The notes beneath the pieces were generated by a model that searched no databases, was not told where the DNA came from, and worked only from the letters and a program-made list of their open reading frames with translations. From Fimbriimonadaceae bacterium (GTDB taxonomy: Bacteria; Armatimonadota; Fimbriimonadia; Fimbriimonadales; Fimbriimonadaceae), in NCBI GenBank assembly GCA_019694835.1, contig JAIBBE010000211.1:1-13549 (forward strand): 13,549 bases of DNA. The letters are read 5' to 3'. The position numbers and the translations under genes were made by a program. This document shows, piece after piece, positions 1 to 13,549 of this stretch; within the stretch, counting starts at the first letter, position 1, and each line of letters opens with the position of its first letter.

Positions 1-2
1 GC

Positions 3-149
3 CCCGGCCACTTCTTCACCCGACGAGATGATGCCAACACACCGCCGGAACCTAACCGAGTGTTGCGACCGCGCCTAGAAACCACCTTGCCGACGTCGAC
101 AGTTGTCGAGATGCAGGAAAGATTGACCGGAATCGCCGGGCTACTTTGA
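3..149 (+). CDS. Possible C-terminal tail of a gene entering from the left
   Basis: Reading frame 3 is open from the window edge to a TGA at 147-149 and gives 48 residues. It ends in a plausible helical stretch (TSTVVEMQERLTGIAGLL). Codon use has the G/C-rich third positions expected here, and the other two plus frames stop early. No domain can be recognised in so short a piece and the start lies outside the window, so this may be a real gene end or a chance open frame. No function is assigned. Confidence 0.3.
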   Translation, partial: PGHFFTRRDDANTPPEPNRVLRPRLETTLPTSTVVEMQERLTGIAGLL

Positions 150-185
150 CAAGACTTCGGCGTGTTTCGGAGGGCTGTCAATCTT
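119..185. repeat. 9-bp inverted repeat with nested stem
   Basis: AAGATTGAC at 119-127 is matched exactly by its reverse complement GTCAATCTT at 177-185, 49 bases away. Inside it CGCCG (134-138) can pair with CGGCG further right. The left arm overlaps the end of the putative gene tail. There is no U-tract and no neighbouring transposase, so the role is unclear. It could be a transcript-end structure, a relic of an element end, or chance. Confidence 0.3.
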
Positions 186-358
186 CGCTGCAAAAGCCCA
201 GCGAGCTAGTGGCTTCGTAATGTCTCTTCTGCGGTCGCTGACCGACCTAGGTCCTAGCTACTCGGATCCCCTAGCCCTTTGTCGCTCGTGAATAGCTTCT
301 CGGCCGATACCTGACAAGACGACTCGTCCGCGAGTCTGCGGCACGAGTGCAATAAGCG
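150..358. other. Non-coding stretch, no gene seen
   Basis: No open frame of useful length is present on either strand. The stretch contains the right arm of the 119-185 inverted repeat, a 10-base palindrome GACCTAGGTC (244-253), several CTAG tetramers close together, and a small hairpin at 321-336. CTAG is usually rare in bacterial coding DNA, so its clustering fits decayed or non-coding sequence. If the left direct repeat is the displaced original helicase end, this stretch is the original downstream flank of that gene. Confidence 0.5.
321..336 (-). terminator. Small hairpin after the helicase relic
   Basis: GACTCG (321-326) and CGAGTC (331-336) form a perfect 6-bp stem around a 4-base loop. 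It lies 22 bases past the stop codon of the helicase relic in the relic's direction of reading. There is no clear T-run after it, so it is at best a weak terminator or its remnant. Confidence 0.25.
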
Positions 359-536
359 TCACTCGGGCCCAAGCGATAGATCCATCGTGAGCCGTTGCGC
401 TAACTCAGCTGGGAGCGGCACTCTATCCTCTTGGCGGTCGGTGGCAACTTCACCAGAGTCCGGTGTTTCCCCATGACCACGCCGAACCACCGCTCGCGGT
501 CCTTAACGACACGGAACATCCTCTCGCCGTGGGTAC
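359..536 (-). pseudogene. 3'-end relic of an SNF2 helicase gene (homologue of the gene at 3993-6725)
   Basis: This stretch matches the last 180 or so bases of the 910-residue helicase gene. In the first part the minus strand encodes MFRVVKDRERWFGVVMG, identical to the live gene. One C is then missing in a C-run (four C at about 470-473, five in the live gene), which throws the frame. Beyond that shift the original frame still reads DRQEDRVPLPAELAQRLTMD and ends at a TGA (359-361). Homology stops abruptly at 536, so the body of this helicase is gone. Differences from the live copy are mostly synonymous (amino-acid changes include D to G, K to R, I to V, Q to E). This implies that the relic diverged as a working gene before it was truncated and frameshifted. 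It is therefore better explained as the end of an allele or homologue than as a fresh duplicate. A non-functional remnant is nearly certain; its history is inferred. Confidence 0.85.
366..536. repeat. Direct repeat, left copy
   Basis: This aligns with 4006-4177 in the same orientation. By hand count there are about 16 mismatches and one single-base gap in about 171 columns, roughly 90% identity. The right edge is sharp: both copies share GGGTAC and then diverge completely. Together the copies bracket the 3.5-kb phosphatase/CBS-HEPN/helicase cassette like attachment-site remnants, although no integrase gene lies between them. Confidence 0.85.
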
Positions 537-780
537 TAGACGTGGCCTCCGACATTTCCGCCACACTCCGTTCCGCATACTCACGCCCGCCTTCCGGCAG
601 AGCTTATAGCGGTTCATCACCCGGTGATGCCCCGGAAATTCGCCCGACACCGCGAACCCCTACGTTGATCTGGTGACCTTGTTGATACTGCTTACGACCA
701 GGTAGGTGACCTCGAGACCTCGTTTAGTCTCAGTGCCCAAGATCAACGTCGACAGCGGGATCGCGAACGGCCGGATTATT
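537..780. other. Non-coding junction region next to the relic
   Basis: No convincing gene is seen between the sharp end of the direct repeat and the stop of the phosphatase gene. A palindrome CATCACC-C-GGTGATG (615-629, 7-bp arms, 1-base centre) has the look of a small operator or hairpin. Minus-strand frames read protein-like for short stretches (for example IRPFAIPLSTLILGTE) but lack a supported start or a recognisable domain. This may be decayed coding DNA at the cassette's left border. Confidence 0.4.
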
Positions 781-1218
781 TCAGAAGGAACCATCTGCGA
801 CCTGGAAACAAACCAATCCGATGCGGCGCCACATCCGAACCACCCGATCACGATCATCAAGTACGCCAACCACGGAGTAACTCGATTCGACATGTCGTCG
901 AAATAGCTCTTCTTTCACGACTTCATCCGGGCGCGAATCGCCATTCGGCCGCATTAGTAGCAAATCGTGATGCACCCCTTTGGATTTCAGCCACTTAGCC
1001 GTTATGTCCCGGGCACGTTCCTCCCGGCCAGATATAACGATAATGGCCGCAACACTTGGGTGGGCTGCGAGGGCTTGAGAAGCAGTAACGACGGCCAAGT
1101 TCGGAGCGTCGTCCGCAGCGGCCCGCCAGTCATACGGGTCACGGTGCACGTTGAGCGCGAGGGTGCCGTCGACGTCCACCATCCACGCGTTGGGTCGGGA
1201 GACCGATTCATTCCTCAT
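781..1218 (-). CDS. T4 Pnkp-like polynucleotide 3'-phosphatase, HAD superfamily, phosphatase domain only
   Basis: The 145-residue product closely resembles the C-terminal phosphatase domain of T4 polynucleotide kinase/phosphatase. It has the HAD nucleophile motif VDVDGTL (D15, D17), then HRDPYDW, the VISGR motif (R65), GDSRPDEVVKEELF (K102), and the DDR acidic pair (D121, D122) followed by VVRMWRRIGLVCFQVADG. All catalytic positions known in the family appear present. The family removes 3'-phosphate or 2',3'-cyclic phosphate from nucleic-acid ends, leaving 3'-OH for ligation. The kinase domain found in T4 Pnkp is absent. I chose the ATG at 1218 because GGAGGT lies just before it and the core motif begins within 20 residues; an in-frame ATG at 1272 would add 18 unlikely residues. 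The gene is divergent from the CBS-HEPN operon. The family call is strong; a link to repair of HEPN-cut RNA is inferred. Confidence 0.9.
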   Translation of the reverse strand: MRNESVSRPNAWMVDVDGTLALNVHRDPYDWRAAADDAPNLAVVTASQALAAHPSVAAIIVISGREERARDITAKWLKSKGVHHDLLLMRPNGDSRPDEVVKEELFRRHVESSYSVVGVLDDRDRVVRMWRRIGLVCFQVADGSF

Positions 1219-1221
1219 CCG

Positions 1222-1227
1222 ACCTCC
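1222..1227 (-). promoter_or_regulatory. Ribosome binding site of the phosphatase gene
   Basis: The minus strand reads GGAGGT followed by three bases and then the ATG at 1218-1216. This near-perfect Shine-Dalgarno sequence decides the start in favour of the 145-residue protein. Confidence 0.65.
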
Positions 1228-1371
1228 GTTCGCTTCGTCAACCTTCGCCGTCCCAGTAGAGGTTGGCCCCACAAGTGGTTACTTATCCGGCATGCGGTCC
1301 GGCTCTAGCACGGGACGAGCCTCAGTGAAACTACAGCGCTTGTATGACGCGATCTAGCCAAGTTTGTATCC
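1228..1371. promoter_or_regulatory. Divergent intergenic region shared by the phosphatase and CBS-HEPN genes
   Basis: This gap of about 150 bases must hold promoters for both directions. A short direct repeat TCCGG...TCCGG (about 1288-1304) is visible. No strong -35/-10 pair can be called by eye; TATGAC at 1343-1348 is a possible plus-strand -10. Head-to-head placement would allow joint regulation of the two transcripts. Confidence 0.35.
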
Positions 1372-2358
1372 ATGGCGATCCGTCTGCGGCGTTATCGTGG
1401 GTTCATGACCGGTGAGTATGCGACTGCGCAGACGCATCGGGTGGCGGATGACAACGCCGCGCTTGCCTTTGATGAGGAGGATCTCGAGCTAGAAGAAACG
1501 GATAGTCAGGATCCGACTGCTATCCCCGCCCCGCGCCTGCGCGCGGCAGCGGAGACAACGGCGCCAGGCGACATGTACCAGCGAGTCAGGCAACTAGTGC
1601 CAGCTGAACAGGAGCTTCTCACCCTCGATGCTGGTACATCTGCTCTGGAAGGTTTGCGGCAACTTGGCCGGCATAGCTACTCGCAGGCCCCAGTGATCAG
1701 CGCCCGAGGTTGTATCGGAGTGTTTTCCTACCGATCATTCGCTCGGACGGTCGCTGCCTTCCCCGAGGGGAAGAGCGGATTCGCGCAGATTGCGGTCGAA
1801 GACTGCATCGAGCAAATCCCTTATGTACGCCTCGAGGACAACATCGCAGATATTTTCGACAAACTCGATCGCTACAACGCAGTCTTGGTTGGCGAGCCGA
1901 CGCGGCTACTTGCCATTACGTCATCCATCGATGCGCTGAACTACCTGTACGAGATCGCCAACGGTTACGTTCTCATGCGTCAGATTGAACTTGCACTTCG
2001 ACACATAATTCGGTTTTCGACGACCGCAGAGACGCTTGCCGAATGTGTCAGCGCTGCGGTCACACAAAAGTACGTCCAGCAACGCCGCGATGCACCCGAA
2101 CGCCTCGAAGAGATGGACTTCTCTGACCTCTACACCATCATTACCAGCGGTCGTACGTGGTCACACTTCACCTGCGTCCTAGGTGGAAACCTCGATCTAG
2201 TGAAGACACGGCTCGCAGGGCTGTCCACGATCCGCAATGACCTTTTTCACTTTCGCCGGCAGATCAGTGCGGAAGAGTACGAGACGCTCGCAATGACTAG
2301 AAACTGGCTGCTCCTCAAAATCGACTTCGCCGAAGCGGCGATGGGCAGCGCAATATGA
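1372..2358 (+). CDS. CBS-pair / HEPN fusion protein, predicted ligand-sensing RNase
   Basis: The 328-residue product has three parts. Residues 1-65 are a variable acidic tail (DEEDLELEE). Residues about 75-195 fit two CBS repeats, each ending in a strand-helix pattern (APVISARGCIGVFSYRSFAR; AVLVGEPTRLLAITSSIDAL). CBS pairs bind adenosine nucleotides or cyclic dinucleotides. Residues about 200-320 are helical with IRNDLFHF, an R-x4-H motif (R288, H293) typical of HEPN RNases. Paired with the helicase that overlaps its stop codon, it may act as the sensing and cutting arm of a two-gene system. The start is uncertain. The ATG at 1372 has no Shine-Dalgarno sequence. The ATG at 1405 would give 317 residues and has TATCGT six bases before it, as in actinobacterial leaderless promoters. 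The fold calls come from reading motifs; RNase activity is inferred, and a non-catalytic HEPN scaffold is the main alternative. Confidence 0.75.
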   Translation: MAIRLRRYRGFMTGEYATAQTHRVADDNAALAFDEEDLELEETDSQDPTAIPAPRLRAAAETTAPGDMYQRVRQLVPAEQELLTLDAGTSALEGLRQLGRHSYSQAPVISARGCIGVFSYRSFARTVAAFPEGKSGFAQIAVEDCIEQIPYVRLEDNIADIFDKLDRYNAVLVGEPTRLLAITSSIDALNYLYEIANGYVLMRQIELALRHIIRFSTTAETLAECVSAAVTQKYVQQRRDAPERLEEMDFSDLYTIITSGRTWSHFTCVLGGNLDLVKTRLAGLSTIRNDLFHFRRQISAEEYETLAMTRNWLLLKIDFAEAAMGSAI

Positions 2359-3725
2359 GTGATTCCGAGTCGATGCATAATCTGACCGCTGATCAGCGGC
2401 AACTTGTCGAGGCCGTCACTAGCGGTGAATCCACCCGACTACTCGTAGTTGCTCCACCCGGAACGGGCAAGTCTCACGCAGTGGTGGCAGCCGTTGTCGA
2501 GTTGCTTGCGCGCGTTCCCAACGCACACGTTCTAATGCTGGCCCCCAAAGCACTATGCGCATATCAACTCGCAATGCTTGCGGACCGGCTTCAATTCGGA
2601 ACTTCAGTCGTAGAAGTCACTGGCAGGGTCCTGGACACCGATATCAGCATCCACAGTCGGGATGGCGATAGCGGATTACCCCCCGGTGTGTACGTCGTCT
2701 CGACTGGTCTCGCTAAGCGAGACGACATCAGCGCCAGACTTGCTGCCTCTGAGTGGGACCTAGTGGTCGTTGACGAAGCCCACGGCATTCCAGCGCCCTT
2801 GATCGACTTCGTGCTGAGACTCGCAGCGGACGCACGAGTACGCTCACTTGTCCTGTTATCGGTGATGACATTGAAAGATGCCCGCCTAACTGACCGTTTT
2901 AAGGCCGTTCCCTGGGCTCGAAAGAACCCTGCAACGTCACCTCGATTCCAAACGGTAATCAGCTATGAGCGCACGCCAGAAGAACAGCAGCTATATCTCC
3001 GGCTGACAGAGTTCCTGCGTATTCAAACCAACGACTCGTTCATGAGGGACGTGATCGAACGCGCGTGGCGATCAAGCGCAATCTCCCTTGAACAGGTACT
3101 CCTACGCGCGCGGTCACTGCTCGAAATCGGTAAGAGCACAGTCGGGCGGCCGGAGTTTGGACCATGGCCCTCGATAAGCCCGCTGGTACGCAGTGGCCAA
3201 CCGTCCTCTGGAGACCGAGAAGACAGACCACAGGTGTGGATCGACAGTGCCGCCGCGGCGGCGGGCCTGGACATACTGTTACGCCTCATCTCCGAATTGC
3301 GTTCCGACTCCAAGCTCGAAGCCATGCTGGCAGCGATCGAGCATCGCCGCGAACACGGAACTGCCTTGCCGTCCGTGTTCACAGAAATGCGTGAGACCGC
3401 CATCTACATCGACGAAGCACTGAATTCACGCGATCAAGTGTCTGTGCGTGCTGAAGGTGAGCAGACTGACTTGGAACGTGCCAAGGCCATTGGCACGGCC
3501 GGTGCGATCGTGGTCGCGACCGATGCGGGCATCCAAGGATTCGAGTTGGCCACGGACACCATCCTCAACTATGACCTGCCGCGTTCACGTATTCGAATGC
3601 AGCACCGGTGGGGGCGAATTGACCGGATCGGCCGCGAGCAGCCTGCCACGATGTTGGCGCTTCGGGATACATCCGAAGTGGACCCCATCGAGGACGAACT
3701 ACTCCGGCTCCACGGGTTCATCTGA
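2355..3725 (+). CDS. Short SF2 (SNF2-like) helicase/translocase
   Basis: The 456-residue product has Walker A APPGTGKS (33-40), DEAH box VVVDEAHG (138-145), a motif-III-like LLSVMT (167-172), motif V VVATDAGIQGFEL (386-398) and motif VI MQHRWGRIDRIGR (415-427), with two arginine fingers as in SNF2/HepA-type enzymes. It is smaller than usual SNF2 proteins: the region between the two RecA lobes (about 200-370) is short and lacks a recognisable accessory domain, and there is no N- or C-terminal extension. The motif-III change from SAT to SVM is slightly unusual. Its ATG overlaps the CBS-HEPN stop by 4 bases (ATGA), so the two are translationally coupled and probably work together. It is predicted to move along or remodel nucleic acid using ATP. 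Whether the substrate is RNA or DNA cannot be told; HEPN partnership leans to RNA, and SNF2-like motifs lean to duplex DNA. Confidence 0.85.
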   Translation: MSDSESMHNLTADQRQLVEAVTSGESTRLLVVAPPGTGKSHAVVAAVVELLARVPNAHVLMLAPKALCAYQLAMLADRLQFGTSVVEVTGRVLDTDISIHSRDGDSGLPPGVYVVSTGLAKRDDISARLAASEWDLVVVDEAHGIPAPLIDFVLRLAADARVRSLVLLSVMTLKDARLTDRFKAVPWARKNPATSPRFQTVISYERTPEEQQLYLRLTEFLRIQTNDSFMRDVIERAWRSSAISLEQVLLRARSLLEIGKSTVGRPEFGPWPSISPLVRSGQPSSGDREDRPQVWIDSAAAAAGLDILLRLISELRSDSKLEAMLAAIEHRREHGTALPSVFTEMRETAIYIDEALNSRDQVSVRAEGEQTDLERAKAIGTAGAIVVATDAGIQGFELATDTILNYDLPRSRIRMQHRWGRIDRIGREQPATMLALRDTSEVDPIEDELLRLHGFI

Positions 3726-3992
3726 TTACGGTCCTTGCGCAACATATGTAATCCACCGCAATGTTCGTAGCCTCAGCGACTTCCGGATCCACTTCTTCTC
3801 CCCTCATTCCCCTTGATGGTGCGTCTCGTAGATCTTCTCCGTGACCTGTCTCGGGCTTGACTATGCGTCACTCAGGTCGGAAAGGGGGATTCTTGGTGAG
3901 TTTGAAGTGCCGACCATACCGGCAGGCAACGGTGTCGATGCTGTTGCGGAGCCGGTATAACGGTCGGGCGCCCAACTGGCACACGAGTCCGA
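3726..3992. other. Intergenic region between converging helicase genes
   Basis: No complete gene is seen in these 267 bases. The main content is the stem-loop at 3910-3967. One minus-strand frame reads smoothly just past the 910-residue helicase's stop (for example RPLYRLRNSIDTVACRYGRH) before a stop near 3876. This could be a decayed gene tail or a by-product of the inverted repeat. It has no supported start and no recognisable family. Confidence 0.45.
3910..3967. terminator. Large imperfect stem-loop between converging genes
   Basis: CCGACC-ATACCGGC (3910-3923) pairs with GCCGGTAT (3951-3958) and, after a 3-base bulge, GGTCGG (3962-3967). Inside, GCAAC (3926-3930) pairs with GTTGC (3943-3947). 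The total is about 19 base pairs in three blocks. It lies 26 bases past the stop of the 910-residue helicase and could end transcription from either side. There is no clear T-tract, and such tracts are often lacking in actinobacteria. A recombination-site or element-end origin is the alternative. Confidence 0.5.
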
Positions 3993-6725
3993 TCAGCCGC
4001 GCCTAGGCCCAAGCGAAAGGTCCATCGTAAGCCGCTGCGCCAATTGAGCCGGGAGCGGAACGCGATCCTCTTGGCGGTCGGTGGCAATTTCACCAGAGTC
4101 CGGTGTTTCCCCCATGACCACGCCGAACCACCGCTCACGGTCCTTAACGACACGGAACATCTTCTCGTCGTGGGTACCGCCGATATAGGGCTCATAGATG
4201 ACCACCGGCTGTCGAACTGCTTCAGCCTTTGAACCAATGCGGTCGATTCGTCCGGTCCTTTGCTCCAGGGTGCTCGGATTCCAGTCGAGGTCATGGTGGA
4301 TGACGTAACGACAATCCTGTTGTAGGTCAACACCTTCCGACATCACCGAGCTGGCGACTAAGACCTCGGGAAAGAATGGCGTATTGAACGCGAGCATAAG
4401 ACGTCTTCGGGTATCCCGCTTGACCGATCCGTTGGCGAGTCGGACGTTGGGCATCAGCACCGCGCGTCGATTAGAACCCTCGGCGGGATCGAAGTCCGCC
4501 GCGGTGGCAACGATGCCACCCGTCTGTATACCGTTCAACGTCTCAAGGACTTCGGCTCGTTCCTGCTCGACTTTCCGGCTCAGCGTGACCGCGAATGCGC
4601 GGATCCGATCGCTCAGCGTGGCCCCTGACATATTGCGTTCCAAGCCGGCGAGCAAGTCATCGACTGTCGTCGTCCGCGAGAGATCGATGTAGCGAACGAG
4701 AAACGATGGTGTCCGCATGAATCTGATCGCCACGTCGGCGGCTTGGTCTTTGGTTGCATCGTCGAACTCCACCAAGAGCGATCGGATCTTGTCTCTAAAG
4801 CGCGCGTACCCGCGAGAGTCGATACGCAGCAGTCGCTCCCCGATACGATCAAGCTCCGCAAGGACTTCTCCTTCCTCAGCGGGGTTCATCCGAAGTCCCT
4901 GGGCTGCGCGGTAGACGACCTCTTCGCGAAGGGCTCGTGAAATGTGTGCGCGGAGGGCACGGCCAGTCTCCACGTAGAAACAGAAGACAAGGACCTTCTC
5001 GCCATTGCGCCAAAGCTCTCGTACCCGTTGGACCGTGGCTTCGACCTTCGGGTGGGATCCCCACATGTCGGACTTCGCGTCCGGCAAGGCGGCTGAAATC
5101 CGATCGAGATACCAACGCAACTGTTGGTTGATCTCAACCGGGCTTTGATCGTTGTCGGCTACTTCGTCGAGTTTGGCGACCCGGTTGCGTCGTGTATCGG
5201 CATAGGCCTCGAAGGAGGAGGCCAATCCGTAGGCGAAGTACTGGCGGGTAGACCTTTCTCCGTCGGATCCTTGAAGTGCAGCAATCGCCTGCGCGCGAGC
5301 GGCGAGCAGAAAGGGAAGCGTGGCGGTCCCCGTGACGGGGATTCCCTTGTCGCTAAGTGTGTTATCGAGTATCGACTTCCCTGGCCGATAGAGCCGCCGC
5401 TGCGCTCTGTCGTTCTTGACGTGCCGGATTACCCATGGCCGAAGTAGGGTTTCGGCCTCATCGATGTCACGGGCGGCATCTTCTGCGATCTGCAGTGCAG
5501 TACGCAATGCCTCCGGCTGCGCGTCAAGAGGTTCAAATGCGGTCAGTTCCTCGACGAGGGTGCTATCGAGGGGGTCGATGCGCGACCATGCCCGCTCTAG
5601 GCGCAGGGCGCTGCTCTGTGCGCGGTCCAGAGCACGTCGCAACTGGTCTAGCTGGTTATCGAAGCTTTCGCGGGCCATTGCCGAAGGCCAACGCACTCCG
5701 TGAAACCGGTTCAGAACATGGAGTAACTCATGGTGGCCCAACTGAAACGGTGTGGCCGTCAGGAACAGCATCTTTTCGAAGATGTCTCCGAGCGGCCCCC
5801 GAAGGGCCTCAGCGTCCTTCTCCGCGTCTTCATTGTCGAAGAGGTGGGCGAGCCGGTTGGGATTCTTAACGTGGTGTGCCTCATCGAGAATCAGCAATGG
5901 GAGCCGGCTACTGAACGCCTTGAGGCAGTGCGGCCACGTGTCATTCAGGGCCGTGTGCAGTTCCCGCCGGGCGGCACGTAATCGAGATTCGTACGTAGCG
6001 GTTGTCCGTAGTGGGATCGCATCCAGCGCGTCACGCAGCGACGTGAGATCAACCTTCTTGAGTGCCGCTTCCAGACCGCGCGGCACTGGGTCGTCATCCA
6101 GGGGATTCCCCGGCTTATGCAACTGCCAGACCTTGCGCCAACGGCTGGTGGGTGACTGCAGCAGTTCCAGAGCGAGTTCGGTGCCGAACTGTCTGTCGTT
6201 AAGGAGTGAACTGGCCGAGCGGGCGACAGCTTGCTGAAGGATGTGGGCGTTCCTCCGGCGCGGCATTGCGCGGCGGAGTAGCGCCAAGCGCATGAATGGG
6301 TCGTGGAGGTTGGTTGTCAGCGCGCCGTGGGTCATGAAGATCAAGTGCGATCTGGTGGCGGCCGGGTCGTCCAGAAGCTTGAGGAAGTCGCTGCCACGCC
6401 GAATGGTTTTGGATGCCCGTAACCCGTGGTCGGGCGGTAGGCAGCGCTCAGCGAACACTGCCCACTCCGTGGGCCACTTTTCGGCGACAGAGGGCGGGAC
6501 CATCACCACGACTGGCTTGCGTCGCTGGGTGGCTTCGAGTACGGAAACGGCGACGGCAAGAGCGACGTAGGTCTTGCCCATGCCTACTTCATCAGCCAAG
6601 ACGAGACCCGGTTGTTCAGCCAGACGATTGAGAATCTCGGCGGCCGTCAGTTGTTGACGGTCGGCGTCCGAATTGGAGATCCGGTCGTTTCTCAGGCTCA
6701 CCTTCGGGCTCAGTACCCACGTCAC
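3993..6725 (-). CDS. SNF2-type DEAH helicase, last gene of the five-gene operon
   Basis: The 910-residue product has motif I LADEVGMGKT (43-52), motif Ia VVVMVPPSVAEKW (72-84), the DEAH box LILDEAHHVKN (278-288), motif III LTATPFQ (322-328), a serine/glutamate motif V SSVMSEGVDL (792-801) and motif VI LEQRTGRIDRIG (820-831). This order and spacing fit SNF2/HepA-like translocases. Residues about 110-270 form a large insert before the DEAH box, and about 385-640 is a helical inter-lobe region. Such enzymes use ATP to track on duplex DNA and commonly partner nucleases in anti-phage systems such as DISARM. The start is GTG at 6725, overlapping the upstream nuclease stop as GTGA, and no other start fits upstream of motif I as well. 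The 3' end is duplicated as a relic at 359-536. The helicase call is secure; the defence role is inferred from partners. Confidence 0.92.
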   Translation of the reverse strand: MTWVLSPKVSLRNDRISNSDADRQQLTAAEILNRLAEQPGLVLADEVGMGKTYVALAVAVSVLEATQRRKPVVVMVPPSVAEKWPTEWAVFAERCLPPDHGLRASKTIRRGSDFLKLLDDPAATRSHLIFMTHGALTTNLHDPFMRLALLRRAMPRRRNAHILQQAVARSASSLLNDRQFGTELALELLQSPTSRWRKVWQLHKPGNPLDDDPVPRGLEAALKKVDLTSLRDALDAIPLRTTATYESRLRAARRELHTALNDTWPHCLKAFSSRLPLLILDEAHHVKNPNRLAHLFDNEDAEKDAEALRGPLGDIFEKMLFLTATPFQLGHHELLHVLNRFHGVRWPSAMARESFDNQLDQLRRALDRAQSSALRLERAWSRIDPLDSTLVEELTAFEPLDAQPEALRTALQIAEDAARDIDEAETLLRPWVIRHVKNDRAQRRLYRPGKSILDNTLSDKGIPVTGTATLPFLLAARAQAIAALQGSDGERSTRQYFAYGLASSFEAYADTRRNRVAKLDEVADNDQSPVEINQQLRWYLDRISAALPDAKSDMWGSHPKVEATVQRVRELWRNGEKVLVFCFYVETGRALRAHISRALREEVVYRAAQGLRMNPAEEGEVLAELDRIGERLLRIDSRGYARFRDKIRSLLVEFDDATKDQAADVAIRFMRTPSFLVRYIDLSRTTTVDDLLAGLERNMSGATLSDRIRAFAVTLSRKVEQERAEVLETLNGIQTGGIVATAADFDPAEGSNRRAVLMPNVRLANGSVKRDTRRRLMLAFNTPFFPEVLVASSVMSEGVDLQQDCRYVIHHDLDWNPSTLEQRTGRIDRIGSKAEAVRQPVVIYEPYIGGTHDEKMFRVVKDRERWFGVVMGETPDSGEIATDRQEDRVPLPAQLAQRLTMDLSLGPRRG
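4006..4177. repeat. Direct repeat, right copy (within the live helicase 3' end)
   Basis: This encodes the last ~60 residues of the 910-residue helicase. It is the intact partner of 366-536, with five C where the left copy has four. Recombination between the copies would delete the phosphatase/CBS-HEPN/helicase cassette and still leave a helicase gene with a homologous end, although that end would carry the frameshift if it came from the left copy. Confidence 0.85.
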
Positions 6726-8734
6726 GCGCGTGCCTTCTTCAGCGCGTCACGCGCGTAGTTGTCCAGCGCCGGATCAGGAGCTGCATCGAGTTCCCCGAGT
6801 CGGGCGGCGATCGAGTCGACAGCCTCCTTGACCAATGCCCGCACCGTTTTCCGGTCAACTCCTGGCGCGACCTGATCCCACTCGACGGCGGCGATGGTGA
6901 GGGCCAGTTCGGCGAGGCGGAAGTGCGCTTCTCCGGGCAGGGTCTTCTCGTCGGCTGCGGCTCGTCCGAGCCCGTCAGCAATGGCGATCGGCCCGACTGG
7001 ACCGCGGAGCCGCCATTCAAGAACGTCGAGACTCGTTGCGGGACGGCTTAATCGCTCCTGGAGTCGCCACAGCGCCAGAGACAGGTGCCGGGCTCTCTGC
7101 AGCAGGAGTCCGCTGTCGTCAAACCTCTGTAGCGGGTCAAGAACGAGGGTGAGTCCTTCATCGACGGCGCGCTGCTTGCGGCGGAGTTCGCGTTCCAGCG
7201 CAATTGGCAGGGGGCGTGTTGAGGCTAAGGCGGCTAGGAGGACGTCGACCGATATTTCATTGAATTCGGGTGGAGCAGGAAGCGCTCCCCGGTCCTCGGC
7301 GTTGACTATCCAGGTGGCTTGGCATTGCTGGCACTCGGCGTCCCAACGCACCAGCAGGTAGGAGGGCAACGCATCGTCGGTCACAGCCAATGCAATTTGC
7401 TGCGGTGCGCCGTCAGCTCGCCAGCCTTCGGCGGTCAGGAGCTTTTTTCCGATTGGACTAAGGATGTCCCAGGTTTCCGGAAGCGCCTCGGCATCGAGTT
7501 GTAGGAATAGGCGCGGAGGAGCCGCGGCGTCGAGGGTGCAACTCACAAATCCGAATGGGAGAATCGGGGTTGTCGGTTCATCCTCGTCGGGGAGAACTCG
7601 CCAGTCCAGGTCGTCTGGGTCGATCTCCGCGCCCAGGCACGCCAACGATCGAAGGTGTTTTGCCGTCTTCGACCGAGTCGGGCAACCGAGCCACAGGTTG
7701 AGTTCGTGGTGTCCGTGGTTTGGGTAGAGGCCAAGGCCTGCCCCGGTCATGTTCGATGACCCGATCATCGCGGCCATCCATTGGTCGCTCTCCAGCAGCA
7801 GCATTTTGGCGTGCAGGGTCCGGCGCTTGTCTGGATCGGGGGTATCGAACTCGCGGATGACCGCCCCTGTCTCGATCTGGGCGAGTAACGATTCCGGTGC
7901 ATGGACTGTCTGGGTTAGGGAGTCGACTCCCACGACGAAGGTCATGCTCCGTGCTGCGGCAGGGCGGCCGGTCAGCATTCCTCGAACTGCCTCGACGGCT
8001 GGTGCCGGATCGGTGCTATCCCAAAATGGCGACAGCATCGTGGCGCGCAACGGCTGTGCACCCCGCCATACGTCGCCGAGACGATCCAGGGGCCTGGTGC
8101 CGGGCCGGGCGGGTGCGACGGCGAGGCGAAGGTCACCGCTGCCCGTTCGTGGGAGGTCCAGTGCCGCAACGCGATCGGCAAGAAGGTCGACTGTGCTGAG
8201 TGCGCGCTCCTTCGGCCCGCTGACGGGACCCGGCACGAGTTCGACAAGTCGCCGGAGTTCGACCACCAGCGTATCGATGACATCCCTTGCTACGCGGCAC
8301 TCGGCGTTGAGATCGATGGCAAGCGACAGTTCGACTTGACGACGGTAGCCGGCCGAGGTCAGGTTGGCGGAACCCAAGATGATCCGAGCCGATCGCTCCC
8401 AGATCAGGGCCGCGACTTTGGCGTGCAGAAGACCGCCGCCGAGCGCGGTGACTGGAAGCAAGTCCCAGCGGAGGTTCCGTTTCTCCGCGGGGGTGCTGCG
8501 ATCGATGAGCACCGATATCTGGGCTTCGCTGAGCCGGTCCTCTTCTTCTAGCAGGGCCGCAATCGATGAGATCCTGTCGCCTTCTGCAGACGTGGTCGAC
8601 AAGCTCAGGAAACGAGCCAGACATTCCTCAGTGAAGAAGTCGGACTCGAACGTAAAGCTGGTGGCAAGGCAGGCAACTGGCTGACCGGCCCCATCTGGCG
8701 GCGCCCAAGAGTCCAGCAATCGAATGTCGCTCAT
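6722..8734 (-). CDS. Phospholipase-D-type nuclease with two HKD-like motifs
   Basis: The 670-residue product carries HAKVAALIWERS...GSANLT (H104, K106, S122, N124) and HAKMLLLESDQW...GSSNMT (H308, K310, S326). This is the paired arrangement that builds one PLD active site. Both lack the Asp of the textbook HxKxxxxD (I111 and E315 stand there), as seen in some PLD-family nucleases. The N-terminal pattern (ATSFTFESDFFTEECL) resembles helicase-associated PLD proteins. Residues about 400-480 form a beta-rich part, including CQQC (468-471) with no second cysteine pair evident. Residues 500-670 are helical. Expected role: metal-independent cleavage of nucleic acid. I chose the ATG at 8734 because it overlaps the previous stop as ATGA; an ATG at 8869 would add 45 residues of overlap without homology. 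The stop overlaps the helicase GTG. Its activity is predicted from motifs only. Confidence 0.85.
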   Translation of the reverse strand: MSDIRLLDSWAPPDGAGQPVACLATSFTFESDFFTEECLARFLSLSTTSAEGDRISSIAALLEEEDRLSEAQISVLIDRSTPAEKRNLRWDLLPVTALGGGLLHAKVAALIWERSARIILGSANLTSAGYRRQVELSLAIDLNAECRVARDVIDTLVVELRRLVELVPGPVSGPKERALSTVDLLADRVAALDLPRTGSGDLRLAVAPARPGTRPLDRLGDVWRGAQPLRATMLSPFWDSTDPAPAVEAVRGMLTGRPAAARSMTFVVGVDSLTQTVHAPESLLAQIETGAVIREFDTPDPDKRRTLHAKMLLLESDQWMAAMIGSSNMTGAGLGLYPNHGHHELNLWLGCPTRSKTAKHLRSLACLGAEIDPDDLDWRVLPDEDEPTTPILPFGFVSCTLDAAAPPRLFLQLDAEALPETWDILSPIGKKLLTAEGWRADGAPQQIALAVTDDALPSYLLVRWDAECQQCQATWIVNAEDRGALPAPPEFNEISVDVLLAALASTRPLPIALERELRRKQRAVDEGLTLVLDPLQRFDDSGLLLQRARHLSLALWRLQERLSRPATSLDVLEWRLRGPVGPIAIADGLGRAAADEKTLPGEAHFRLAELALTIAAVEWDQVAPGVDRKTVRALVKEAVDSIAARLGELDAAPDPALDNYARDALKKARA

Positions 8735-10029
8735 CGGGCGGTGTCTTCGACAAAGCGCCGCAGCGTGGCGATCCGGACAGGATGGACAAACGCTTCCGAC
8801 AGCTGGGGCCGGTCGGCAACCGCATAGGGAACGCGAACGATCACTCCCCCTCGGAAGGGCTCGAACCATGGGCTCTTGCCACGTGGCGGTTTGTCGGCCT
8901 GGATTCGCTTATGATGGGCCAGGAGAAGCTCTACTAGTTCACCCGGCGGTCGCGGGATGGCGAATTCACCCAGCCGCTCCTCCAGCAGTCCGTCCATCTC
9001 GATCGCGGACATTCGCTCCACCGCCTCTCGATAGCGAATGGGAATATCGCGTGCGTAGCGCGCAAACGTCGGATCGAGTCCCATCGATAGCGGCGTGAGA
9101 GGCTCAAAGCCGAGTGCGTAGGAGACCCAGCACAAGGTCCGGAAGGCCGCGTCGATCAGTTGCGCAAGTCGCTCATACGCGACGACTGCATCGATGATCC
9201 TTTTCAGACCGGGTGAACACGATGGTCGCAGTGCCGCGAGGGTTGCGGCCTCGGTCATCTCGCCTCTGATGCCGGTCAGGTGCTTGGCTAGTTCAGCGCG
9301 GGTTTCGTGCTCGCCATCGCTGATTAGTGACCGAAGCACTCGGCGCTCGAGTGGCCCGGCTTCGTCGGGCCGCAGGGATGTGGCCAGATCACCGAACAGC
9401 CAGCTACGTGGCTTCGTCATGCATCTGCCGTTCCGCAGGGCATCGCGTACCTGGTCGCGAATCTGTGCTCTCAGTCCTCCGCCCTTGGTGCCGCTCACTG
9501 CGTCGGTGAACCCGTCGAAGCCCTGCTCGTACTCCCAGGTCCGGGTGAGTTCAGCACACCGGGGGCCTGGCTCGAGTTCGCTGCTGACGACGCCCGCGTC
9601 GATGGCGAAGGGCTTGTAGACGCCGTTGAACCCGAACACCGTTGGACTTTTCAGATAGGTCGCCGCTGATAGGCGCTCATTACGGTTGACGACGGCCCGG
9701 GTCTTCTGGCTTCCGGGCACGCCGGTGGGCATCTCCTGCGGCGAAAGTCGCCTTACCAGGGCTTCGATGAGGACCCACTCGAAGCAGATCGCCGGTGTGG
9801 AAATGTCGTCGCCAGGTTTTTCGTCTGCCAGGGTTTCACAGGCCACCGACCCGACTGCCATTGCAGTGACAAAGCGGATCGACTGCATTCGCGCCCGAAC
9901 ACCGGGTACTAGTTGATCGGCCAACCGATCTGAGATCACGGCCAGCCCCATCGGGTCGAGGCTTCCTTCGCCTGTGACTCCGGGATCCCAGGCCGTTAGT
10001 TCAGGTAGCGCTAATCCTGCCAGCGTCAT
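8731..10029 (-). CDS. Unrecognised 432-residue protein between the small orphan and the PLD nuclease
   Basis: I do not recognise the family with confidence. The protein is soluble-looking, mostly helical, with no signal peptide or membrane segment. Landmarks include LDPMGLAVISDRLADQLVPG (about 25-44), an aromatic stretch SPTVFGFNGVYKPFA, RTWEYEQGFDGF, and a basic C-terminal part with RPPGELVELLLAHHKR. The opening pattern (D-P-x-G-L ... PG ... R) faintly recalls uncharacterised proteins such as DUF6361 that occur near helicase/PLD loci; this is a resemblance only. No nuclease, methyltransferase or NTPase motif is visible. Its place, coupled by ATGA on both sides, suggests an obligate partner of the PLD nuclease and helicase, for example a target-recognition or scaffold subunit. 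A real gene is near certain; the function is unknown. Confidence 0.85.
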   Translation of the reverse strand: MTLAGLALPELTAWDPGVTGEGSLDPMGLAVISDRLADQLVPGVRARMQSIRFVTAMAVGSVACETLADEKPGDDISTPAICFEWVLIEALVRRLSPQEMPTGVPGSQKTRAVVNRNERLSAATYLKSPTVFGFNGVYKPFAIDAGVVSSELEPGPRCAELTRTWEYEQGFDGFTDAVSGTKGGGLRAQIRDQVRDALRNGRCMTKPRSWLFGDLATSLRPDEAGPLERRVLRSLISDGEHETRAELAKHLTGIRGEMTEAATLAALRPSCSPGLKRIIDAVVAYERLAQLIDAAFRTLCWVSYALGFEPLTPLSMGLDPTFARYARDIPIRYREAVERMSAIEMDGLLEERLGEFAIPRPPGELVELLLAHHKRIQADKPPRGKSPWFEPFRGGVIVRVPYAVADRPQLSEAFVHPVRIATLRRFVEDTAR

Positions 10030-10250
10030 GATTGCGGACTGGGTGTTCGATCAAAGGGCCCCCCACAGAACAACGCGGCCGTCTTCTTCAACGCCGAGGA
10101 GCACATTTCCCTCGACAGGGAGACAAGCCCATCGTCGTCATTCCACACATCGTTGGCGAAGTAGTGATCGAACTCCTCCCGACGCCTCTTCGGCGCCGCG
10201 TGGTCTATCGCGAATATTCGCTTTGCCATGAAGTCCAGTCCCTGACTCAT
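10026..10250 (-). CDS. Small unrecognised protein, 74 residues
   Basis: No family is recognised. The sequence is charged and begins with a basic stretch (KRIFAIDHAAPKRRREEFDH), then an acidic patch (NDVWNDDDG) and a Ser/Pro-rich end. No membrane segment or zinc-binding set is visible. Its ATG overlaps the VIT-VWA stop (ATGA, 10247-10250) and its stop overlaps the ATG of the 432-residue gene (10026-10029). Two 4-base couplings strongly support a translated gene despite its size. A later in-frame ATG at residue 8 has weaker context. It could be a small regulator, inhibitor or adaptor of the operon; an old truncated gene kept only as a translational bridge is the alternative. Confidence 0.7.
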   Translation of the reverse strand: MSQGLDFMAKRIFAIDHAAPKRRREEFDHYFANDVWNDDDGLVSLSREMCSSALKKTAALFCGGPFDRTPSPQS

Positions 10251-13200
10251 ACAAGATCCAATGTCGCACCGTCCATGATCTGCTGGACGGCAATGACCTT
10301 GGGGGCCGTTTGGACGAGGATGTCGACGCCTGGCGCCGGCCGATAGACCAAGACTGTTGTCTCGTCGCCGCGGATCTCCGCTGGTTGTCCGATCAGCCCG
10401 GTGACTTCATCCAGCGTCATGCCTTTTCGAATCTGACTGAACTTCTCTCGCCACAATGCGTCCCCTGCCACGCGGGTAGCTGAGGTCAGGCTGCTGGCAT
10501 CGATCGTCACTTCACCGACCGTGACTTCGTCACTGGGCTGATCCAAGCGAAGAGTCAGCACCTCGTGCCTTTCCGATGCACGTCCGTAGTTGGTGTAAAC
10601 GTCGACGATGACGGTGCAACTGCCGGAAATCATCTGCTGGTGGGAGCCGTAGTAGTGAGCTTTGACGGTGTAGGCGCCGGAGTAGGCCCTGTGCAGCACG
10701 TACTCTTCGGGTCCGTATCCCTGGGTGAAGTCACGCGAGACCAGTCCGCCGATCTGTGTCCGGTTGTGGCCGTAGTAGGCGTGCTCGCCGGTCGGTTCGA
10801 ACACGTGCAGGTCGATGTCGGTGAGGTCGGCGTCCCAGGACATGCTGATGCGCACGTCCAGATCGAGCAGCCGGATCAGCCGGCTGTCGATCTCTGTCGG
10901 AATCGCGATGCCCTTCTGCTGTGCGAAGTGGATGAGCCGGTTGAGTTCCATCAATGCGATGATCTCGATCTCCGGGAAGTTGGCCCAGCTGTTCAGGATC
11001 ACGTGATGCAGCAGGTCCATCGCGCGGAGTGCGTCGGCCTGGTCGCCGTTTCGTTCCCAGCGGCGGCTCAGGGCCAGTGCCAGGTCTCGGTGGGATTGGG
11101 GCTCGTCGCCGCGGGCCTCCCGGACGCGTTCGAGGATGGCGATGGCCAAATCCAGGTCGTCGGCCTGTTGCAGCCGCCAGGCGAAACTGCGCATCAGAGC
11201 CGGGTCATCGAGTCCGGTCTCCACCAGGTTCGACAGGACACGGATCCCCAATTCCTTGTAGCCGCAACTCAATAGGTAGTCGCCGCAATCGAGGAAGAAG
11301 GCGGGGCTGGCGGCGTACTCGGGGCGCTGTCCCAGGTAGACCGCGTAGGCCTCCTCGGCCGCGCCCTCCCGCATCTCGGTCAGATAGGGCGTGTCCGGTG
11401 TCCAGGGCTTGATGCGGATGGCGCCTGCGGCCGAAGGCAGGTCCGCTCCTCCCGGAGCTGCCAGGTCATGGTCCGCTCCTCCCGGAGCTGCCAGGTCATG
11501 GTCCGCTCCTCCCGGAGCTGCCAGGTCAAACCCCGCAACTTCCAAGTCATCGAGATCTATTCCGCCTGCTAGGGCGAAGTCCGCCTCGAAAGCCCCTGCG
11601 GCCGCCGGGGGTGCTGCCATCGCCGCGAAACTGCCGCCGGCTTCGCGGCTGGGGGCAGGTCCTGCCCGACGGGCCCTTGGCATGTCGTCCCGATCGTTGG
11701 CTTGGGAACCTGGACGCGGTCCGGCCGTGCCCGGAGCACCCTTCCTGGGGCGTCGGTGACTTTCATCTACAGGGCGGAAGTCGAATTCCTGTTCCCACCA
11801 CTGCACGCGTTGCTGCCAGAGATCGATGACCCTGTCCAGATGCGATGCCCGGCTTTGCTTGTCGGCCTGGGTGTGCTCTGCGATGCGGGCGTCGTACGCT
11901 GCTCGCATTTCCGGCAGGCTGGCCGGCGGCTGGATTCGATATTCGAGGTACTGCTCGAGGCTCTCTAGGACGAGAAGCGAGGTTCCCGGTGTGACCAGCC
12001 CGTGCGTGCGGGCAACAGTCAGGATTTCCTCGGCGGTGGGTTTCAGCGTCAGTCCTAGCACCTGGGTCTGCAGACCTGCCCACGCGCGGGCCACCAGATC
12101 GCCGACGCCAGCGTCTGCCCGGCTGACTGTCGCAGTTTCCGGTGTCCTGCCCAAGCCGGCGACGGCCAGCGACGCCTCGCTCTTGGTCAGCCGGCCGAGG
12201 ACCGCCACGCGGCCTTGGCCGGCGATCACATGGGTGTCCGCACAGCCGTCGGACTCGACGATCCGCGGGGCTTGGCCACCGGAGACGATCTCGCGAACTG
12301 CGGCGGCGGTGTTGGTGCGTAACAGGTTCAGGTAACGGCCGCCGGTGCTGCGCGCGAGGTGCTGCAGCAGGGCGGCATTGGAATGGGCTTGTCCCGTCAC
12401 GGCGATGATCTGAACCGGGCCGATCTTCGGCAGGCCAGTGTCGATGGTTCCCAGGCCGTCGCTGAACAACAGCCACGCCTCGCATCCAGCGTTGGCGGGC
12501 GATGCCAGGTCCAACGCTGTCAGATCCGTTCCACCGTCATAGGGCAGACCCTGCAGATAGGTCAGGAGGTCTGCGGCCTGGCTGTCGCCGGGGGCGAAGG
12601 ATCGCCGTTCGTCGTCGAGCCGGTTGCGGAAGACGACCACGTCGACCACCGTGTCGTTCCACGCGGCCAGCAGTTCCCGCAACAAGTCGTACTCGCGATC
12701 CAGGGAATGGCGGCTACCGGAGGCGTCCCAGGCGATCGCGACGCGTTTCGGCATCCAGGCCTGCTCGTCTCCTCGCTCGCTCAGCATGCTGCTGATGCAG
12801 AAGAAGGATTCCCCGTCCTTGTTCTCGACGGTGGTGAATCGGTCGGGCAGATCGGGCAGTCGGATCTGCAGGTCCTCGGCAGGCAGCCCCCTGCCGAGTG
12901 TGGCTTCGGCGACCCAGCGATCCTCCCAGCGATTCAGGGCCATGTTGCCCAGTCCGCCGCTGATCACCGGTGCAACCGGAGCCTGGACGACTTCCGCACG
13001 CAGTGACACCGACTCGATGTTGGCCGCGTGGGTCAACGGCAGGTGGTAGGCAGCCTGATTGCCGTCCACCGTCAGATTGCTGATGTAGGTGACCCGAACC
13101 GTGCGGGCACCGCGAGGCGGGATCGGGTAGATCCGCGTCCGGTAGACGTTGCCCTGGACTTGCTCGAGGAGACCCGGGTCGGCGCCCTTGCGTTCCTCGG

Positions 13201-13513
13201 CCTCGAGAATCCGGCGGGCCTCCTGCTTGGGGACGACCACCCCGTCGACCAGCTGGCCGTCGACATCCAAGGCGTAGCCGCAAACCACGGCGTTATCGGG
13301 CAGCGGAAAACTGAGATTGCCCTCCAGCACGCGATCGTTCGGGTTGTAGAAGCGCATCGTCTGCGTCGTCTCGGCCAACAGACCGCTGACCTTGACCTGG
13401 ATCTCCAGGCCACTCAGTTCGATGGTCCGTTCGCCGCGGGGCGCCTCGATATAGGGCAACCGGTCCTCGGGGGAGAACTGACGGTCAACCGATTGTCCGA
13501 AGAACCAAAACAT
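10247..13513 (-). CDS. Large VIT / VWA / helical-repeat / DUF2135 / BamE-like protein, first operon gene
   Basis: The 1088-residue product reads as a chain of domains. VIT spans about 25-170. VWA spans about 255-400 with a complete MIDAS: DASGS (263-267), GGTD (T329) and SDG (D352). A Pro/Ala/Gly-rich linker spans about 585-700, holding three 10-residue repeats (663-692). TPR-like helices span about 715-865. A DUF2135/YfaP-like beta domain spans about 886-985 (SMSWDADLTDIDLHVFEPTG). The end (1021-1088) resembles BamE/SmpA (IRKGMTLDEVTGLIGQPAEI). VIT and VWA mediate metal-dependent protein binding. The relatives I know of BamE are lipoproteins, and DUF2135 proteins are often exported, but here there is no signal peptide or lipobox, so a cytoplasmic scaffold is likely. 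The ATG at 13513 has AGGGAG seven bases upstream. Its stop overlaps the next gene as ATGA, tying it to the nuclease and helicase genes. Domain calls are good; the role in this operon is inferred. Confidence 0.88.
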   Translation of the reverse strand: MFWFFGQSVDRQFSPEDRLPYIEAPRGERTIELSGLEIQVKVSGLLAETTQTMRFYNPNDRVLEGNLSFPLPDNAVVCGYALDVDGQLVDGVVVPKQEARRILEAEERKGADPGLLEQVQGNVYRTRIYPIPPRGARTVRVTYISNLTVDGNQAAYHLPLTHAANIESVSLRAEVVQAPVAPVISGGLGNMALNRWEDRWVAEATLGRGLPAEDLQIRLPDLPDRFTTVENKDGESFFCISSMLSERGDEQAWMPKRVAIAWDASGSRHSLDREYDLLRELLAAWNDTVVDVVVFRNRLDDERRSFAPGDSQAADLLTYLQGLPYDGGTDLTALDLASPANAGCEAWLLFSDGLGTIDTGLPKIGPVQIIAVTGQAHSNAALLQHLARSTGGRYLNLLRTNTAAAVREIVSGGQAPRIVESDGCADTHVIAGQGRVAVLGRLTKSEASLAVAGLGRTPETATVSRADAGVGDLVARAWAGLQTQVLGLTLKPTAEEILTVARTHGLVTPGTSLLVLESLEQYLEYRIQPPASLPEMRAAYDARIAEHTQADKQSRASHLDRVIDLWQQRVQWWEQEFDFRPVDESHRRPRKGAPGTAGPRPGSQANDRDDMPRARRAGPAPSREAGGSFAAMAAPPAAAGAFEADFALAGGIDLDDLEVAGFDLAAPGGADHDLAAPGGADHDLAAPGGADLPSAAGAIRIKPWTPDTPYLTEMREGAAEEAYAVYLGQRPEYAASPAFFLDCGDYLLSCGYKELGIRVLSNLVETGLDDPALMRSFAWRLQQADDLDLAIAILERVREARGDEPQSHRDLALALSRRWERNGDQADALRAMDLLHHVILNSWANFPEIEIIALMELNRLIHFAQQKGIAIPTEIDSRLIRLLDLDVRISMSWDADLTDIDLHVFEPTGEHAYYGHNRTQIGGLVSRDFTQGYGPEEYVLHRAYSGAYTVKAHYYGSHQQMISGSCTVIVDVYTNYGRASERHEVLTLRLDQPSDEVTVGEVTIDASSLTSATRVAGDALWREKFSQIRKGMTLDEVTGLIGQPAEIRGDETTVLVYRPAPGVDILVQTAPKVIAVQQIMDGATLDLV
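11440..11528. repeat. 30-bp perfect tandem repeat, three units
   Basis: Units begin at 11441, 11471 and 11501 and are identical until base 11528. They keep the frame and encode three copies of DLAAPGGADH (last one DL) in the linker of the VIT-VWA protein. Identity at the nucleotide level, including synonymous positions, indicates recent slippage-type expansion in a length-tolerant linker. Confidence 0.95.
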
Positions 13514-13520
13514 GAATCCG

Positions 13521-13526
13521 CTCCCT
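13521..13526 (-). promoter_or_regulatory. Ribosome binding site of the first operon gene
   Basis: The minus strand reads AGGGAG, seven bases before the ATG at 13513. This is a standard spacing and supports the chosen start. The operon promoter, if it is not further upstream, lies outside the window. One upstream frame has a TAG about 12 bases before the ATG, so an additional upstream gene cannot be excluded. Confidence 0.6.
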
Positions 13527-13549
13527 ATCGACTGGCACTCTCGTGCACA

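Follow-up and report, generated by a model that had tools for sequence, protein, structure and literature searches.

The minus strand of a 13,549-nucleotide (nt) stretch from a Fimbriimonadaceae bacterium (the window: GenBank assembly GCA_019694835.1, contig JAIBBE010000211.1, positions 1 to 13,549) carries three overlapping genes that probably constitute an anti-phage cassette, representing a branch related to Azaca and PDC-M27. The first gene, orf432 (8731–10029), encodes a ZacA-like, predicted all-helical protein of 432 amino acids (aa) with an ATG start, the second (6722–8734) a ZacB-like PLD-family nuclease of 670 aa with two HxK...N...E halves, starting from ATG at 8734, and the third (3993–6725) an SNF2/RapA-type DNA translocase of 910 aa with a GTG start, which is both ZacC-like and PDC-M27C-like. 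We refer to these genes as the trio. Their order is conserved, their spacing is close, the nuclease and ATPase motifs are intact and each product is homologous to a Zac protein, with orf432 as the weakest case. Upstream on the same strand lie the gene of a VIT-(VWA)-DUF2135 protein (10247–13513, 1088 aa, ATG start) and orf74 (10026–10250, 74 aa, ATG start), which is coupled to both its neighbours; the two are probably adjoining genes outside the cassette.

Five minus-strand genes with four consecutive 4-base overlaps, as described in the original prediction, are indeed present: the open reading frames (ORFs) are consecutive and share four bases at each junction (10247–10250, 10026–10029, 8731–8734 and 6722–6725), the third of which reads ATGA. 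For the PLD gene, the ORF finder also gives a longer form with a start at 8869. In the relatives at loci L004, L005 and L015, the frame upstream of the overlapping start is open and lacks any start, which makes 8734 the likelier choice. Judged by eye, AGGGAGC in front of the ATG of the VIT gene is a possible ribosome site. Pfam confirmed the predicted SNF2 helicase (Helicase_C, 1.7e-15; SNF2-rel_dom, 5.4e-11) and assigned PLDc_2 (5.6e-8) to the PLD gene and VIT (8.1e-28) and DUF2135 (8.7e-11) to the VIT gene, while neither orf74 nor orf432 had a Pfam match at an E value of 1. Among the PADLOC models, orf432 matched ZacA (E 6.5e-5), the PLD protein ZacB (2.4e-16, over two short stretches) and DrmC (1.1e-8), and the SNF2 protein PDC-M27C (2.6e-36), DrmD (4.8e-29), ZacC (6.8e-26) and DrmA (4e-24); the VIT protein and orf74 matched none of them. 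In NCBIfam, orf432 had no match, and all matches of the PLD and SNF2 proteins fell far below the cut-offs.

A single scan of genome contigs with a 100-residue piece of the SNF2 protein yielded 50 loci, 38 of which contained orf432, PLD and SNF2 genes in the same order and on the same strand. Since the loci had been chosen via the SNF2 gene, it is the linkage of orf432 and PLD that counts as independent. With gene starts that a script placed close to the aligned start, orf432 and PLD were no more than 40 nt apart in 37 of the 38 loci (overlap in 28), and PLD and SNF2 in 35 (overlap in 33). Wide PLD–SNF2 gaps (352–697 nt) were confined to L028, L047 and L050, and the PLD frame was short in L028 (422 aa) and L050 (254 aa). 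The remaining 12 loci include cuts at contig ends, SNF2 fragments and L048, where a relative of orf432 was detectable by profile only. According to record titles and tree labels, the 38 trio loci belong to eight phyla (Actinomycetota, with L004 from Rhodococcus sp. counted here, Pseudomonadota, Bacteroidota, Chloroflexota, Verrucomicrobiota, Planctomycetota, Acidobacteriota and Myxococcota), with one locus (L039) unassigned. Because it is kept across phyla, the three-gene part is beyond chance. The phyla were intermixed in a tree of 41 SNF2 proteins, in which the window grouped with L001 (Mycolicibacterium) and L002 (an actinomycete metagenome-assembled genome) with a support of 100/100. Occurrence was also patchy, as orf432 was present in genome G001 and in none of 60 relatives searched. 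The family comparisons below rest on three alignments (A1, A2 and A3), comprising the window together with 37, 37 and 40 of the 50 loci and leaving out shorter, open-ended or broken genes, among them the PLD genes of L028 and L050.

Neighbours of the trio matched models of AbiEii, LeoA, DrmB, DrmD and type IIG/DrmMI; the two sets of 10 genes scanned were picked by hand and serve as examples, not rates, and the second set included three genes that matched nothing and, once, the SNF2 gene of the locus itself. At L047 (900–15612), a divergent trio lies between an upstream DrmD-like helicase and a downstream gene similar to type IIG/DrmMI, which resembles a patchwork of DISARM and Azaca-like components.

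The Zac proteins are the products of the Azaca system (zacA-zacB-zacC); a literature search by their names returned no Azaca paper. 'Azaca (ZacC)' is named among systems with a helicase (PMC12278908), a PLD-like domain is given for Azaca (PMC10952713), and a 2023 survey calls Azaca enriched in Actinobacteria (PMC10482375). Scanning 148 genomes from a single class with the ZacA model yielded two full matches plus a shorter one; in 398 genomes from a different phylum, it yielded four that were full and two that were weak. Six of the nine regions fetched contained zacA-zacB-zacC in the same order and on the same strand, and PADLOC confirmed ZacB in all six (E 2.6e-117 or better) and ZacC in all four proteins scanned (E 0). 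The trio loci (38/50) and the Azaca loci (6/6) thus share the A-B-C order on one strand, and both encode an A protein with a D-x2-G-x13-P motif, a two-half PLD protein and an SNF2-type helicase. The SNF2 protein of the window, with its 910 aa, is about 130–160 aa shorter than four ZacC proteins (1044–1066 aa, two of them read from stop to stop). The weak ZacA matches led to two further loci, L090 (4294–8210, minus strand) and L091 (4113–8052, minus strand), in which a ZacA-like protein of 520–530 aa accompanies a PLD protein of 786–787 aa. This ZacA-like protein aligned to orf432 in hhalign (88.7%), and the SNF2 profile matched neither locus at E 0.01, the L091 contig being of limited length. 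The pair is possibly a helicase-free third branch.

AlphaFold2 predicted a confident helical fold for orf432 (mean predicted local distance difference test score 92.1). Foldseek found no match of this model in the PDB with E ≤0.001, and the best Z score in VIA-align was 4.5, which is not proof of a new fold. Sequence matches of the orf432 profile in the PDB (e.g., aldolases; E 0.0019–0.091) were taken as chance. The ZacA model matched 8 of the 38 orf432-family members at E 0.01. In hhalign, orf432 aligned to six ZacA proteins with 78.4% (E 1.7e-5), to two ZacA proteins only with 35.5% and to the VIT family, as a control, with 0.1%; in the reverse search the orf432 profile matched two of six ZacA proteins. 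The extended motif D-x2-G-x13-P-x9-R-aromatic was present in 30 of 38 members of the orf432 family, in all six ZacA proteins and in both proteins of the putative third branch; it occurred in 10 of 7600 shuffled sequences and was absent from three control alignments (0/41, 0/4 and 0/6). Of the two genes that had been described as orphans, orf432 is ZacA-like, and orf74 had no family match.

The other two proteins matched their Zac models in every aligned member. The PLD protein has two active-site halves, H104/K106/N124/E135 and H308/K310/N328/E344, all invariant in the 38 aligned full-length proteins. The nuclease had been predicted as a two-HKD protein; the two HxK...N...E halves were recovered, and the classical aspartate of 'HKD' was not among the invariant residues. 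All 38 PLD proteins matched the ZacB model at E 0.001, hhalign aligned the PLD family to six ZacB proteins with 98.6% (E 5.9e-16) across both active-site halves, and the trio PLD profile matched 6/6 ZacB in the reverse search. In the SNF2 protein, a GMGKT motif is located at residue 48 and DEAH at 281, and RapA is the best solved relative by sequence (1.6e-22). The models of ZacC and PDC-M27C were each matched by all 41 SNF2 proteins at E 0.001, the alignment to ZacC (two sequences) reached 99.3% in hhalign, and the trio SNF2 profile found 6/6 ZacC. The original prediction of a PLD nuclease and an SNF2 translocase encoded in a coupled operon, as in defence systems, is thus supported (ZacB 38/38; ZacC 41/41).

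Several observations weigh against the reading as an Azaca-related defence cassette. Real Azaca proteins score far higher with their own models than the trio does: 299–447 bits for ZacA against 20.7 for orf432, 391–574 bits over the full length of six ZacB against 57.7 for the PLD protein, and 1060–1136 bits for ZacC against 89.1 for the SNF2 protein. At E 0.01, the ZacA model did not reach 30 of the 38 orf432-family members, and the alignment of orf432 to six ZacA is confined to the N-terminal half (residues 19–178). The extended motif also occurred in 4 of 38 PLD-family controls. The orf432–ZacA link is the least secure step. The PLD–ZacB alignment is limited to residues 5–351; the SNF2–ZacC alignment covers the C-terminal helicase part. 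Helicase homology is general, and both PDC-M27C and DrmD outscore ZacC for this protein. Moreover, the anti-phage activity of the trio and the steps of its mechanism are inferred. Full membership in Azaca was rejected, as no full-length match to a Zac model was found at the level of real members, and because those members score so much higher, we file the trio as a related branch. The original prediction of a system that matches none that can be named is thereby qualified: the trio is a relative of Azaca, yet its proteins remain far below the scores of real Azaca proteins.

The PADLOC candidate PDC-M27 is roughly as near to the trio as Azaca is. The trio may instead belong to PDC-M27, or the trio, Azaca and PDC-M27 may all be branches of one larger family, which we regard as a serious possibility just short of an even chance. 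The SNF2 protein scores best with PDC-M27C (123 bits) and the two are co-linear (767–837 vs 737–807 of 892); real ZacC proteins obtain only 61–81 bits with this model, so the trio protein is closer to PDC-M27C than ZacC is. The second PLD half is likewise co-linear with M27B (298–347 vs 276–324 of 635). Yet the other two models reach fewer members than their Azaca counterparts, with M27A matching just 4 of the 38 orf432-family members (8 for ZacA) and M27B 24 of the 38 PLD proteins (38 for ZacB). The term PDC-M27 occurred in none of the papers of the library searched. Two named systems were rejected as homes for the trio. In DISARM, DrmB and a methyltransferase accompany DrmC and DrmD. The PLD protein resembles DrmC, and the SNF2 protein DrmD and DrmA, the last match being weaker than those to M27C, DrmD and ZacC, but the NCBIfam scores are far from the cut-offs (DrmC, 26.9 vs 133 bits; DrmD, 116.7 vs 610 bits) and none of the eight window proteins scanned matched DrmB or a methyltransferase. 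Mokosh combines a helicase with a PLD protein. A published table gives a PLD-like domain for it, and the 11 PADLOC families listed for the window's PLD protein include no Mokosh model.

Apart from these relationships, the five genes had been proposed to form one undescribed system led by a VIT-VWA protein. This proposal was not supported: the VIT gene adjoined the PLD and helicase genes at none of the 50 other loci, neither by tblastn nor with a profile of four family members, and this includes L001, the closest relative for which upstream sequence exists. Within this sample, an outcome that the original prediction itself had named as speaking against it has therefore occurred. Co-occurrence of all five genes was not found elsewhere in this sample, and the VIT–orf74 and orf74–orf432 junctions were seen in none of the 50 loci. 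The profile recovered a family member not used in building it (L056, 3.5e-191), and in 33 of the 38 trio loci the sequence upstream of orf432 extends for 3.5 kb or more, with a shorter view in the rest. Beyond the 50 loci, the absence of the VIT gene beside the trio covers 15 genomes reached from them, two of which had distant VIT-only matches, 80 genomes of one class, four of which had partial matches to the VIT protein, and nine Azaca-side regions, none of which matched the VIT profile. Conversely, VIT relatives occur without the trio. They were found on plasmids of Deinococcus, Sphingomonas, Aureibacter and Novosphingobium (29–34% mean identity over 76–82% of the query); in the flanks fetched for these four loci, tblastn revealed no relative of the trio, and the three annotated ones had no PLD protein or helicase annotated within 7 kb, several neighbours being hypothetical. 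Base composition points in the same direction. The GC content at third codon positions (GC3) is 0.78 for the VIT gene, 0.69 for the trio and 0.62 for three genes on the other side (z 5.3 for VIT gene versus trio, and 3.6, if codons are independent), and these differences suggest different histories. The VIT gene is thus probably a locus-specific neighbour outside the conserved trio.

It is nevertheless conceivable, if unlikely, that the five genes act as one system in which the VIT-(VWA) protein would serve as accessory sensor or scaffold, its place upstream of the trio being a slot for exchangeable genes. Two further 4-base overlaps link the VIT gene to the trio via orf74, the metal ion-dependent adhesion site (MIDAS)-like residues of the protein are intact, and other loci have unrelated same-strand genes close upstream of the trio: a LeoA-like gene (L031, 56 nt), AbiEii (L007, 108 nt), a Schlafen-type helicase (L022, 73 nt), a WYL regulator (L014, 84 nt), a 508-aa gene with a 4-base overlap (L023) and a DrmD-like gene with a 1-base overlap (L047). 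These upstream ORFs were called mechanically and some are surely spurious. The variety of upstream neighbours also speaks against a fixed five-gene unit, as do the missing VIT gene at all other loci, its relatives without a trio and its deviating GC3. A more specific version, in which the trio core and a translationally coupled exchangeable slot, filled here by a VIT-VWA sensor or scaffold with an intact MIDAS-like site and a 74-aa linker protein, would make up a five-gene defence system, we consider quite unlikely. A literature search for VIT domains in phage defence listed no such case.

The description of the leading protein as a VIT/VWA scaffold stood for its VIT domain, whereas no Pfam VWA model matched. 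The VWA assignment is based on a MIDAS-like motif, DASGS at residue 263; D263, S265 and S267 are kept in three aligned relatives. Within the VIT gene, three direct repeats with 30-bp spacing (11440–11543) encode a GGADHDLAAP-like linker. The intervening orf74 had no tblastn match at 1e-3 in the 50 loci, and its GC3 is 0.71. Orf74 is a putative gene.

That the trio is a module of DNA repair or a barrier to DNA uptake, and not of phage defence, we judge improbable: SNF2/RapA-type translocases and PLD nucleases do occur in housekeeping and plasmid-restriction roles, but the patchy distribution of orf432, the mixing of phyla in the SNF2 tree, the defence-gene neighbours at hand-picked loci and the homology to Azaca argue otherwise.

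For the trio as a defence cassette beside Azaca and PDC-M27, we infer the roles of motor, nuclease and adaptor, DNA as the target and a recognition that needs no methyl mark. The SNF2/RapA-type protein would move along double-stranded DNA and recognise phage DNA, whether invading or replicating. No methyltransferase belongs to the trio, so the feature recognised would not be a methyl mark. Cutting would fall to the PLD protein, whose single chain combines two active-site halves; PLD enzymes require no metal. The helical orf432 protein may be an adaptor that bridges translocase and nuclease, and it might restrain the nuclease as long as the translocase has not engaged its target. Both upstream genes, orf74 and that of the VIT protein, may be co-transcribed and would not be needed for the core. 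The trio points to a multi-phylum family beside Azaca, most of which is missed by the ZacA model of PADLOC at the threshold used above. The alignments fix its constants, namely the pair of PLD active sites, the SNF2 motor and the D-x2-G-x13-P-x9-R-aromatic motif of the A protein. As the 2023 survey calls the mechanism of Azaca unknown (PMC10482375), the invariant residues offer directly testable positions.

Against 72,556 plasmid records, megablast with the whole window found no match, nor did tblastn with orf432, the PLD protein or three relatives; the SNF2 protein matched 286 records, none of them covering more than 80% of its length. Among viral contigs, single-protein scans with orf432, the PLD protein and the VIT protein found no relative, as did alignment A1, whereas A2 and A3 each found one locus (L066 and L073) on the same 103-kb contig. 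This contig, which IMG/VR lists as viral, carries all three trio genes. The VIT alignment hit six loci on viral contigs over DUF2135 residues only, and the VIT protein had no match among phage records.

On the other side of the operon, the window encodes a CBS-HEPN protein (1372–2358, plus strand) related to DS-11 (5e-20), although it scores 71.8 bits where the cut-off is 260. DS-11 consists of one protein and is reported to protect from phage (PMC13092281). A helicase gene (2355–3725, plus strand, 456 aa) overlaps the CBS-HEPN gene by four bases, and the two (1372–3725) are possibly a two-gene variant of DS-11. Eight of the nine plasmid records with a relative were haloarchaeal. A PNKP-type HAD phosphatase (781–1272, minus strand; Pfam HAD_PNKP, 1.8e-46) is encoded between the CBS-HEPN gene and a degraded second copy of the SNF2 3' end (366–536 vs 4006–4177, 172 bp, 90.7% identical). 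The CBS-HEPN, helicase and phosphatase genes all lie between the two copies of this 3' end, an arrangement that resembles the insertion of a cassette where the operon ends on its 3' side. A second partial copy of the SNF2 3' end is also present downstream at L032.

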